Part shown: positions 700 through 16,526 of the stretch, piece after piece
How the letters are laid out: each line of letters opens with the position of its first letter
Position numbering within the stretch: the stretch's first letter is position 1
Virus record (IMG/VR): IMGVR_UViG_3300008448_000723
Span: 1 to 22,518 of that record
Direction: 5' to 3' (one strand)
DNA from: a virus
DNA length: 22,518 nucleotides
Position numbers and translations under genes: made by a program
The notes under the pieces: model-generated
The model's database searches: none
The model's input: only the letters and a program-made list of their open reading frames with translations
What the model was told of the DNA's origin: nothing

Positions 700-915
700 T
701 TATTTCCTCAATCCACCGATACCGGTTTTTTCTTTTAATTGTTGGATTTGTTCATTAGTCAATAGGCGGAGTGCTTCAAGTGCTTTCGTATCAGAAAAAC
801 CATAGACGGTTTTAATGCATTGTATATCTTCACTTTTATCAGACTTAGCCCACTTTACGAACGGTCTTTTCTTAGACCTTATGGTATTTAGTGTTTTAAT
901 AATTTCATATAACAT
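700..915 (-). pseudogene. Duplicated C-terminal fragment of clamp-loader gp62
   Basis: This 71-codon frame encodes a second copy of the gp62 C-terminus. From LNTIRSKKRPFVKW to GIGGL it matches residues of the full gp62 at 1411-1800 at 49 of 61 positions by my count. The first eight codons (MLYEIIKT) have no gp62 counterpart and overlap the 3' end of the HNH gene in another frame. The N-terminal half of gp62 is absent. Because this copy abuts regA by one base, the ancestral gp62-regA arrangement, I infer that it is the original C-terminus, displaced when an HNH gene arrived with a replacement C-terminus. It could still be translated as a short polypeptide from its ATG, but no convincing Shine-Dalgarno is seen. 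Confidence 0.85.
832..873. repeat. Direct repeat, copy 1 (gp62 tail duplication)
   Basis: These 42 bases match 1549-1590 with a single mismatch (g at 859 against a at 1576). They encode the KKRPFVKWAKSDKS segment shared by gp62 and its truncated copy. The flanks are also similar but more diverged. The two copies are 717 bp apart in the same orientation. Confidence 0.95.
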
Positions 916-1385
916 AACAATTTTTCAATATCAACTATACCACAATCATTCTTTAACCGATTAGCTTTGAACGATATAATCTGTATATTGCCTTTTACAT
1001 ATCCTTTACTATTATCAATCCTATCCAATGATGGTGACTTATCTGTTGGACCTTTACCGACACCGACTTCAAATTCAAAACCAAATACTGGACACAATTT
1101 TGGTATTTTGATATCATCCAACTCTATATTAAATTCTATACCAGTTTTCTCAGACCTTTTCTTAGCCCTCCACCACATAGATTTTATAAACTTCAATCCA
1201 AGTTCTTCATATTTCTCTTTGTGTATTTTTCTATTATCCAAAGATTTATTTTTGATATTAGCACATTCTACACATCCCATGTTTGAAACATATTTTTGAG
1301 ATATGTGTCCTTTTTTACAAGGTTTACCATTGAAATATCTAAAGAAACCTTGTTTTTTTGCTTCTTCTCTACTTATTATTTGCAT
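888..1385 (-). CDS. HNH homing-type endonuclease inserted between gp62 and regA
   Basis: Free-standing HNH-family nuclease of about 165 residues. Near the N-terminus are zinc-binding-type cysteines (CKKGH and CVEC), and near residue 120 the characteristic SLDRIDNSKGY..GNIQIISFKANRLKND block that holds the HNH catalytic region in many phage HNH proteins. A GTG lies six bases upstream, but the ATG at 1385 is placed better after the GAGG ribosome binding site. It starts shortly after the gp62 stop and its last codons overlap the truncated gp62 copy. It is more AT-rich than gp44. Enzymes of this type usually cut an allele lacking the insert and spread by recombination; the flanking duplication supports this history. 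Confidence 0.85.
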   Translation of the reverse strand: MQIISREEAKKQGFFRYFNGKPCKKGHISQKYVSNMGCVECANIKNKSLDNRKIHKEKYEELGLKFIKSMWWRAKKRSEKTGIEFNIELDDIKIPKLCPVFGFEFEVGVGKGPTDKSPSLDRIDNSKGYVKGNIQIISFKANRLKNDCGIVDIEKLLCYMKLLKH

Positions 1386-1396
1386 AAACACCTCAC

Positions 1397-1412
1397 AATA
1401 TTAGTTAATATT
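1397..1412. repeat. Perfect inverted repeat at gp62-HNH junction
   Basis: Seven-base arms AATATTA and TAATATT separated by two bases sit exactly where gp62 ends (its TAA is at 1411-1413) and the HNH leader begins. No T-tract follows, so it is not a typical terminator. It may mark the insertion boundary or be chance in AT-rich DNA. Confidence 0.5.
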
Positions 1413-1800
1413 ATTTAGTATTTTTTAGTCCTCCAATGGACATTTTTTCTTTCAAAAGATATATTTGTTCATCGGTCAACAGGCGGAGTGCTTCGAGTGC
1501 TTTTATGTCAGAAAAACCGAAATGAAATTTAATTGCGTCAATATCTGAACTTTTATCAGACTTAGCCCACTTTACAAACGGTCTTTTCTTTGAGCGAATA
1601 GTGTTTAACAAAAAATCATTCTGTAGTTTCTTGTCGATGAATGACCTGCGGTTCATTTCATTCGCATATGATACGCAATCAATTTGATATGACAGCGAAC
1701 GATTGACCAAAAACGGAACGTATTCAGATTCAGTCACATCATCAACAATTAACTGTTTCTTTCCTTGTAGAATTTGGTTTACATAATCAAACGGACTCAT
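1411..1800 (-). CDS. 62: Clamp-loader small subunit gp62
   Basis: gp62 is the small subunit of the phage clamp loader, which with four gp44 subunits opens and loads the gp45 sliding clamp. The 129-residue form seen here is the short version typical of aquatic T4-like phages (T4 gp62 is 187). Recognisable segments are PFDYVNQI at the start, VPFLVNRSLSYQIDCVSYANEMNRR in the middle (shared motif of these short gp62 proteins) and a KWAKSDKS...ALEALRLLTDEQI tail. The ATG overlaps the stop of the preceding membrane-protein gene (ATGA). A second, diverged copy of its C-terminal half lies downstream beyond an HNH gene. The copy here is full length and presumably functional. Confidence 0.85.
   Translation of the reverse strand: MSPFDYVNQILQGKKQLIVDDVTESEYVPFLVNRSLSYQIDCVSYANEMNRRSFIDKKLQNDFLLNTIRSKKRPFVKWAKSDKSSDIDAIKFHFGFSDIKALEALRLLTDEQIYLLKEKMSIGGLKNTK
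1549..1590. repeat. Direct repeat, copy 2 (within intact gp62)
   Basis: Partner of the 42-base repeat at 832-873, one mismatch. Recombination between the two copies would delete the HNH gene and restore a single intact gp62 joined to regA. Confidence 0.95.
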
Positions 1801-14781: not shown

Positions 14782-15075
14782 TTATTTTTTGCCTTTTACA
14801 ATATTTTCTCTCCAAGGCAACATTTGTAAGTTGCCAATTTCAGATATTTCTTCGGCCGAAATGTTATTTTCAAATCCTTTTTTGCAAGATATGATATGAT
14901 CCAGATGATAACCACCTTCTATGCCAGCAAGTGTTCTCTTATATCCATTAGGATTAATTATTTTTTTATTCATCATATATGTTTGTTCTGTTAATTTTGT
15001 AACTCTATTTCTATATCTTCTAAATTCTGGTGTATCTTTCTTAAATCTTGTTTTTTTATATTCTTCTGTTTGCAT
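14782..15075 (-). CDS. HNH endonuclease between gp47 and gp46
   Basis: A 97-residue compact HNH nuclease. The catalytic block is GGYHLDHIISCKKGFENNI (54-72, with the DH pair) followed by EISEIGNLQMLPWRENIVKGKK, typical of small phage HNH proteins in which the N of NLQ and the later N form the rest of the motif. It occupies the gap between gp47 and gp46, adjacent in T4 only with small genes between. AT-rich compared with gp46 and gp47. No Shine-Dalgarno is evident. Its stop is one base before the gp46 ATG, so insertion has not broken either neighbour. Confidence 0.85.
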   Translation of the reverse strand: MQTEEYKKTRFKKDTPEFRRYRNRVTKLTEQTYMMNKKIINPNGYKRTLAGIEGGYHLDHIISCKKGFENNISAEEISEIGNLQMLPWRENIVKGKK

Positions 15076-15087
15076 ATCTAAAAATAA

Positions 15088-16158
15088 TCATTCTGAAGTT
15101 TCTGTATTCAATGCCTCAACGTATAATTCTTTCATTAAGTTCTTGAGTTTATCACGTTCTACATTAATTGTCAAGTTATCTATGTACTTTGATAGTATGG
15201 TCATTGTATCTTCTGCCTGATCCACAATATCGGCATCAATGTCGGTATCATAATCATTGAAGTCTTCAACAATGGATATATCAGCTGCACCAGATTTATA
15301 TAGATTATCCAATACTGTATCGAACAGGTAAGGATTCTGTTTGTTTATTACAACAACTTTAATGTAACACTCTTTGTATAAACTAAAGTCATGTGTCTTC
15401 CAATCTTCAAATGATTGTGCGCCATCATCATATGTTATCTTATGAAACATCTTATGTGGATTTGGTACAAATGTCAACTCTCTTGTGTCGGTATCAAAGA
15501 TATGAAAGCCACGTTGGTCATTATAATCTGCCCAAGTAATTTCATACTGATTACCCAAATAAGAAATGTTGCCATCACTTGATTTGTGGTGAAAGTGGCC
15601 AGACAATACAGTATCGAATCGGTCAAACATCTTCTTTTCTAAGCCTGTATGGCAAATATTACCTTTGTCCATTTCAAAGCCAGCAATCTCAAAGTGACCA
15701 AATACAATCTGTGCGGTTGTTTGTTGTACATCATCTAAGGTTTCTTGGTAATTACTAGAATTAATCCAAGGCACCATCAATACTTCTGTACCATCATAGT
15801 TCTTCTTTACTGGACTTGTGTACACATTTATGTTATCATAGTGGTCAAACAACTCATTCATGGCATTGATTTCATTTGTGTTCTTGTAAGTCACATCGTG
15901 ATTACCTACAATTACATCCATGGTAATGCCTTCGTTCTTTAACACATCAAAGAATCGTTTACGCCACGAATTCAGAATAACATAGTTAATAAACTTTCTT
16001 CGGTCTACCACATCACCAAGGTGGCAGATATGTTTAATGTCGTGTTCTTTCAAATAAGGAAAGAATGTACCTTCCCAGAATTTGAAGAAGTATTCATTAA
16101 AAGGTAAACTATCACCACGAGCACCCGCATGGGTATCATTTATAATTGCCAGCTTCAT
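15088..16158 (-). CDS. 47: Recombination nuclease subunit gp47 (SbcD/Mre11-like)
   Basis: Metal-dependent nuclease partner of gp46. The five calcineurin-type phosphoesterase motifs are clear: INDTHAG (6-12), GDVVDRR (48-54), GNHD (85-88), FGHFE (153-157) and SGHFHH (186-191). The 356 residues compare with 339 in T4. An acidic C-terminal part (DYDTDIDADIVDQAED) precedes a final helix likely to contact gp46. Its ATG overlaps the stop of an upstream HNH gene (ATGA), implying translational coupling. Confidence 0.97.
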   Translation of the reverse strand: MKLAIINDTHAGARGDSLPFNEYFFKFWEGTFFPYLKEHDIKHICHLGDVVDRRKFINYVILNSWRKRFFDVLKNEGITMDVIVGNHDVTYKNTNEINAMNELFDHYDNINVYTSPVKKNYDGTEVLMVPWINSSNYQETLDDVQQTTAQIVFGHFEIAGFEMDKGNICHTGLEKKMFDRFDTVLSGHFHHKSSDGNISYLGNQYEITWADYNDQRGFHIFDTDTRELTFVPNPHKMFHKITYDDGAQSFEDWKTHDFSLYKECYIKVVVINKQNPYLFDTVLDNLYKSGAADISIVEDFNDYDTDIDADIVDQAEDTMTILSKYIDNLTINVERDKLKNLMKELYVEALNTETSE

Positions 16159-16526
16159 AGTATTTTATTTTCTTCAATATATTCTATAAGTTTTTTAACT
16201 CGGTCGATATCTTCTTTTAGTAAACCTAAAGAAGTATTACAGTTTGAACAAAGTAGTTTTCTAATATTACCTGTTATATGACAATGGTCAACACTTAAAC
16301 TTTTTTTCTGTTCAGTATAATGTTTTTCACCAATATAACAATTACCATTCTGTTCAAATAACATCTTATTGTAATCTTCTAGAGATATACCATAGTTCCT
16401 AATCAACATCCTATTTTTAGATTTATCTTTATTATTTGCATAATACTCCTTCATTGCTTGTTTGCGTTCAGTTGTATTGTTATATTTTAATAAAGTAACT
16501 TTTCTTTTTTCTGGTGTAGTTCTCAT
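16155..16526 (-). CDS. Endonuclease VII-like HNH protein with an altered zinc site
   Basis: A 123-residue protein of the recombination endonuclease VII-like HNH family. A basic N-terminus (TTPEKRKVTLLKY...YYANNKDKSKNR) is followed by YGISLEDYNKMLFEQNGNC (about 45-63), LSVDHCHITGNIRKLLCSNCN (77-97) and LGLLKEDIDRVKKLIEYI. VDHCH is the catalytic segment and CSNC one zinc pair. The other pair, normally CxxC right after QNGNC, reads CYIGEK: the second cysteine is missing. The protein may therefore be unstable or use another ligand. ATG follows TAGGAG, and a perfect late box lies just upstream. It ends overlapping gp47. Confidence 0.85.
   Translation of the reverse strand: MRTTPEKRKVTLLKYNNTTERKQAMKEYYANNKDKSKNRMLIRNYGISLEDYNKMLFEQNGNCYIGEKHYTEQKKSLSVDHCHITGNIRKLLCSNCNTSLGLLKEDIDRVKKLIEYIEENKIL

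Follow-up and report, generated by a model that had tools for sequence, protein, structure and literature searches.

Organization of the gp62–regA region

The window analysed here is a 22.5-kb virus record (22,518 nucleotides) from a T4-like freshwater phage that carries T4-type genes on the minus strand. The identities of gp44, gp62 and regA are backed by family searches, and those of gp45, gp46/47, gp55 and the capsid gene were assigned by position and sequence only. Between gp44 and regA lie, in this order, two small open reading frames (ORFs), a complete gp62, an HNH nuclease gene and a further copy of the C-terminal half of gp62. The gene gp62 is a clamp-loader gene and is essential in replication.

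All features of the locus described below are on the minus strand. The complete gp62 ORF (1411-1800; 129 aa) matches Pfam Phage_clamp_A (4.9e-9) and phrog_225 (8e-36), and the HNH gene (888-1385; 165 aa) matches the endonuclease families phrog_3322 (4e-31) and phrog_1035 (3e-24). The latter gene has its own start, stop and Shine–Dalgarno sequence, its likely start being the ATG that follows the Shine–Dalgarno sequence GTGAGGTG, not the GTG at 1391. The second gp62 end (the distal copy, Cd; 700-891) can also be read as an ORF spanning 700-915, and its TAA (700-702) lies one base away from the ATG (698) of regA (294-698; Pfam Translat_reg, 9e-48), the next resident gene. This arrangement, including the one-base junction to regA, had been described in a first-pass annotation of the same DNA and is confirmed here, as is its statement that no intron is involved, the upstream gp62 ending in its own stop codon. 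Both a group I intron and an intein were considered and rejected: gp62 is complete before the HNH gene, and what follows downstream is a repeat of the gene end and not a continuation of the gene, leaving the HNH gene outside either kind of element.

The proximal gp62 end (Cp) and the distal one share 49 residues, as had been reported, over 62 rather than 61 positions (79%). The reported spacing of 717 bp is exact, and the 42-base stretch with one mismatch corresponds to codons 71-84. The duplication across the HNH gene is far above chance, since it scores E = 1.3e-31 and the best of 300 random window positions reaches 1e-3. An assembly error is excluded, because nine more contigs, from as many metagenome datasets, show the same arrangement and junctions.

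Two further HNH/Endonuclease VII-type genes are present in the window, at 14782-15075 and 16155-16526. They are tightly packed against their neighbours, between the gp47/gp46 and gp55/gp47 positions, and TATAAATA is found ~30 nt upstream of the one at 16155-16526. Both were examined for flank duplication, which is absent.

Resident and incoming gene ends

Searching viral contigs with gp62 yielded nine that share the arrangement (L001-L009) and sixteen close relatives that lack the HNH gene (L010-L025); L457-L461 came from a second scan, based on an alignment of HNH sequences. In alignments of the gp62–regA region, the check that the annotation had proposed, HNH-free relatives hold one C-terminus, and it is closest to the distal copy. 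The single C-terminus of HNH-free L012 is 98% identical to the distal copy in nucleotides and 97% in amino acids, against 75% and 81% for the proximal copy; elsewhere L012 is equally close to the window, at 98% aa in the resident N-terminal part of gp62 (codons 1-64; 1609..1800, left of the insertion point) and 99% aa in regA. The close empty relatives of the window as a group show 95-97% aa identity to Cd and 79-81% to Cp. Likewise, the nearest empty alleles of the window, L008, L037, L457 and L458 are 95-100% identical in amino acids to the respective distal copy, whereas identity to the proximal one does not exceed 69-81%.

In these empty relatives, the position of the HNH gene falls inside the gp62 coding sequence, at codon 64/65. 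The compared stretch measures 1162 bp in the occupied and 445 bp in the empty allele, so that the insert amounts to 717 bp and the loss of resident bases to zero. The inserted element (893..1609), as delimited by this comparison, comprises the foreign gp62 C-terminus, a leader and the HNH gene, with boundaries at 1609/1610 and 892/893. The cleanest pair is that of L456 (occupied; the same contig as L037) and L425 (empty), which agree at 398 of 400 bp on the left and 895 of 900 bp on the right; over 1.3 kb they are 99.5% identical, and the 717-bp insert is their sole structural difference. By these comparisons, the insert lies between codon 64 and ACTAAATACC with every resident base kept, the proximal copy (codons 65-129 and the stop; 1411..1608) completes gp62, and the distal copy still abuts regA.

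The ages of the two copies bear on whether the gp62 end was simply duplicated in tandem, with the HNH gene invading later and the copies diverging in place. Relative to the empty L012 allele, dS is 1.30 for the proximal and 0.025 for the distal copy. Local duplication is disfavoured by these values because its products would be of the same age; further, the proximal copy completes gp62 and therefore should not be the faster-changing one. In a helicase gene with the same layout (L111, below), the proximal end comes from another lineage. In favour of tandem duplication, codons 71-84 are near-identical between the window copies, which gene conversion can also account for, and the proximal copies of L457/L458 have their nearest match in their own lineage (71-78% aa). 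Taken together, a local tandem origin is scarcely credible. The comparisons instead support the annotation's view that the distal copy is the resident C-terminus and the proximal copy foreign. The pattern of divergence would demand that Cp came from another lineage, although a scan with both Cp sequences gave no close single-copy match outside its own lineage. The expectation that other relatives would match the proximal copy is borne out in the helicase gene of L111, but for gp62 the donor was not found.

The insertion site

The element enters gp62 exactly at a TAAATA motif, whose context in the empty gene is TTACTAAATACCATAAGG. At codons 65-67, TAAATA is kept in 135 of 137 distinct HNH-free sequences. 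Leu65 is invariably encoded by CTA (106/106), compared with 20% CTA usage elsewhere, and Asn66 by AAT (135/135). Although these counts ignore kinship, such near-invariance across distant lineages suggests that the motif is under constraint as DNA. The late-promoter motif reported for phage Aeh1 is CTAAATA (PMC1524935) and that for S-PM2 is NATAAATA (PMC2984593), and the gp62 motif is likely to represent an internal late-type promoter serving regA. To the right of the insert, the resident sequence starts with ACTAAATACC and supplies the stop codon of the HNH gene, a TAA at 888-890 that belongs to the resident sequence. The ACTAAATA found at this junction (885..892) is the right half of the split target site and the first resident sequence, and empty alleles carry it at the same codons.

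The proximal copy is altered over precisely this region. Codons 64-70 (1591..1611) have all been changed synonymously relative to the resident sequence, leaving the residues unaltered, with codon 64 being TTG against the resident TTA. CTAAATA is found in none of eight occupied gp62s (0/8) and in 109 of 142 others, among which L421 and L424 (below) are counted (Fisher p = 2e-5, kinship ignored). The recoding fits, but does not prove, a resistance of the occupied allele to the element's own nuclease.

The nuclease gene and its leader

The last codons of Cp carry AATACTAAATA, which is invariant across six aligned leaders; the late-promoter-like motif ACTAAATA is located at 1412..1419, at the end of the proximal copy and ahead of the HNH gene, and is likewise invariant in six leaders. 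In L462, the motif sits beyond the gp62 stop codon, so that its conservation is one of DNA and not of protein. By its resemblance to known motifs, the segment at 1412-1419 may be the late promoter of the HNH gene. The leader continues with a 6-bp A-U hairpin (1397..1412), the Shine–Dalgarno sequence and the HNH ATG. This hairpin is the inverted repeat that the annotation had taken to mark the insertion junction; the repeat exists, but it is placed between the proximal-copy stop and the HNH start, away from both insertion boundaries. All hairpin positions are paired in six lineages, in which a single pair varies (A-U/G-U/G-C), too few varying pairs for covariation to serve as proof. Longer inverted repeats occupy the position in L462 and L463.

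An AlphaFold model of the HNH protein has a mean pLDDT of 81. Its best fold match in the PDB is PacI (3ldy), with a modest E of 0.013, a probability of 1.00 and a TM-score of 0.39-0.45. A sequence search of solved structures in the PDB returned no relative of the HNH protein or of gp62. D121, R122, N133 and K145 are invariant in 22 relatives, and in the SLDRID motif a D takes the place of the first H of the signature.

Mobility and range of the element

Among the window, L001, L008 and L009, the 717-bp insert shows 0-1 differences, whereas several percent or more separate the flanks of the three backbones that share it. The upstream region of L008 is a different one, and its right flank resembles that of empty L024; in L009, the gp62 N-terminal part is close to L024 and the right flank equals that of the window over 400 bp. 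A near-identical insert with exchanged flanks therefore places the element in at least three backbones, as homing with co-conversion would give. On this evidence, the unit of Cp, leader and HNH gene has spread recently between backbones, and the annotation's suggestion that the proximal C-terminus arrived with the nuclease gene is upheld, as the two travel as one unit.

Beyond this group, five divergent element lineages were recognised in 17 contigs including the window. All are inserted at the same codon and share one anatomy, and where the insert was measured its length is 717 or 715 bp. The HNH gene is open in all five, with dN of 0.15 against dS of 1.07 between two lineages. Between lineages, the HNH protein is 72-81% identical in amino acids and RegA 77-88%, so that the element diverges about as its neighbours do. 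Together with the common site and leader, this would suit an ancient element whose HNH gene and two gp62 copies were already present in a common ancestor, the empty alleles being products of excision or replacement; recombination with an empty phage could always replace an occupied allele. However, excision mediated by the repeats would leave a proximal-type site, and the expected recoded proximal start is seen in 0 of 137 distinct HNH-free alleles, a result that also speaks against the precise excision via direct repeats proposed in the annotation. Further, the insert is younger than its flanks in the group of the window, and distal copies are 95-100% identical to their own empties. An ancestral element is thus regarded as very unlikely.

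The site is also used by a second type of nuclease. In L424 (660-1220), a different nuclease gene (Pfam HNH and NUMOD3) lies in antisense orientation at the same site, between two gp62 C-termini, which may represent a second nuclease family with the same strategy; close relatives of this antisense nuclease are absent from the viral contigs. L421 (2285-2700), whose backbone is nearly that of L425/L456, contains an insert of 216 bp that provides a second gp62 end, with a short spacer but no nuclease, and is perhaps a Cp-only relic left after nuclease loss.

The existence of two gp62 ends without a nuclease in L421 leaves room for the HNH gene being a passenger and not the driver, with ordinary recombination moving a chance duplication that happened to contain a nuclease gene. 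Phages recombine freely, and cutting by the HNH protein is predicted only. Yet two nuclease families, in both orientations, are found at one site, the site is recoded in all occupied alleles, and the HNH gene has stayed open in all five lineages at the dN and dS given above. A passenger role is accordingly considered unlikely.

In two loci, L462 (2249-3097) and L463 (2255-3010), a related HNH gene (about 50% identity) follows a complete gp62 and is itself followed by regA, with no distal copy. These two loci may show either an ancestral condition or the outcome of erosion.

Fate of the distal copy

The distal copy is open in most occupied lineages, although in L459 its end is frameshifted and passes the normal stop. 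It might hence be a separate selected protein, such as a small subunit with a clamp-loader or regulatory role, with the HNH gene merely lying between two genes. A short in-frame start upstream (the ORF at 700-915) and, in L421, an ATG directly before the distal copy could serve such a protein. The annotation had held that common retention of both copies under purifying selection in related phages would count against a homing event. Several lineages do retain both, but in each one that has a near empty relative the distal copy is almost identical to the C-terminus of that relative, and it bears weak signs of relaxed constraint. Relative to near empties, nonsynonymous and synonymous changes number 8:19 in the distal copy against 6:61 in the gp62 N-terminal part (p = 0.02) and 16:100 in regA (p = 0.08), part of the distal-copy divergence in these counts being older than the insertion. 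No second copy is found in the HNH-free alleles examined except two, nor in sequenced isolates, where 478 records with this gp62 C-terminus hold it in 478 places. Phage C48C1, in which gp62 is only partly annotated, proved to contain a single ordinary gp62 whose annotated start is late. In view of these counts and the L459 frameshift, a selected second protein is judged highly improbable. The distal copy may be retained only as the promoter and leader of regA.

Proposed mechanism and comparison with known systems

Several ways in which phage nuclease genes persist are known: inside introns or inteins, in intergenic positions, or by dividing a gene into two parts that both work. The gp62 locus is very probably the result of a different event, in which an HNH homing element of the free-standing kind enters the gp62 coding sequence together with its own 3' gene end. 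The HNH protein would cut or nick an empty gp62 near TTACTAAATACC, and the break would be repaired from an occupied phage, with homology provided by gp62 on the left and by gp62–regA on the right. The resulting allele would resist re-cutting, because the site in Cp has been recoded and the distal one is without its left half. The motif ahead of the HNH gene would act as a late promoter and perhaps also as a homing-site-like operator, as in I-TevI. Against homing stand the missing Cp donor, the L462/L463 nuclease without a distal copy, the weak fold match of the HNH model and the D in place of the first signature H.

A similar solution is known from fungal mitochondria. In Glomus and Allomyces, a nuclease ORF accompanied by a foreign C-terminus completes an essential gene, and the native end is left downstream; the gene hybrids include atp6 of Allomyces macrogynus and atp6, atp9, cox2 and nad3 of Glomus sp. 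(PMC3630166). In both settings, the foreign C-terminus completes the gene and the stranded native end is almost identical to that of an insert-free relative. The fungal nucleases, however, are of the LAGLIDADG or GIY-YIG type, mitochondrial and sometimes fused in frame with the gene, whereas the phage has an HNH nuclease, a gp62 separated by a stop codon, a promoter-like leader and a ribosome-binding site. The phage element would thus work like the mitochondrial hybrids, with no common descent implied.

Among T4-like phages, the seg and mob nuclease genes are intergenic or split genes (mobE in nrdA, mobA in gene 60, and seg43), and their cleavage sites can be up to hundreds of bp away (PMC2988022). 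The gp62 element resembles them in its free-standing nuclease, late-promoter motif, leader hairpin and exchange of flanking sequence, but the replacement gene end carried here is absent from that review. T4 nuclease genes are under the control of late promoters with hairpins in the leader, and in I-TevI the promoter overlaps a homing-site-like operator (PMC2988022). The hairpin is also shared with I-TevI, and the presence of TACTAAATA in both leader and target suggests, by analogy, a similar logic. I-TevI, in contrast, is a GIY-YIG enzyme in a self-splicing intron, and the gp62 element needs no splicing. Similarly, PacI offers the best fold match to the predicted HNH model, but it is a restriction enzyme, matched at a low TM-score and with no PDB sequence hit to accompany it.

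Surveys of phage nucleases report intergenic and split-gene cases, and duplicated gene ends are absent from the accessible reviews and surveys (PMC2988022, PMC10448857, PMC12724721; subscription literature lay outside the search). Within the accessible literature, the route is thus known from fungal mitochondria, and no description was found for bacterial viruses. It would constitute a further route for phages, in which an essential gene is interrupted and completed in one step by a carried, site-altered end. Through such an element, phage lineages also exchange the C-terminal part of a replication protein. With pairs of occupied and empty alleles and a putative Cp-only relic at hand, the route is directly testable.

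The same layout in other genes

The layout is not confined to gp62. In L111 (1258-3490), a complete T7-type primase-helicase gene is followed by an HNH gene and then by a second helicase end, 19 residues long. The last 100 nt of the proximal helicase end are 89-90% identical to L358/L372 against 68% to L301, whereas the helicase body further upstream has L301 as its nearest relative; for the distal end, HNH-free L348 agrees at 55 of 60 nt. A donor-like proximal end and a resident-like distal end, both anticipated by the annotation, are therefore seen together in the helicase case. L480 (2300-3125) repeats this layout in a related primase-helicase gene, at a different point. In L479 (2310-2812), a 9-residue end of another gene is fused to the C-terminus of the nuclease; this short case is less sure. 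Most other HNH neighbours examined show no flank duplication, and their matches of 4-14 residues with weak E were taken as chance, L479 excepted.

These cases raise the prospect, which we put forward tentatively and at somewhat less than even odds, of a general class of phage homing elements that replace gene ends. Nucleases of various families would target constrained motifs in essential genes (here the late-promoter core inside gp62), survive by means of a carried, recoded 3' end and become ordinary intergenic nucleases once the stranded end erodes. Such erosion may be suggested by the state of L462/L463, and it would offer a possible arrival route for some intergenic nuclease genes. As a separate observation, inspection by eye finds nuclease-like ORFs in the gp44–gp62 interval of L459 (1622-2086; Endonuclease VII-like) and L460 (1339-1845; GIY-YIG-like).
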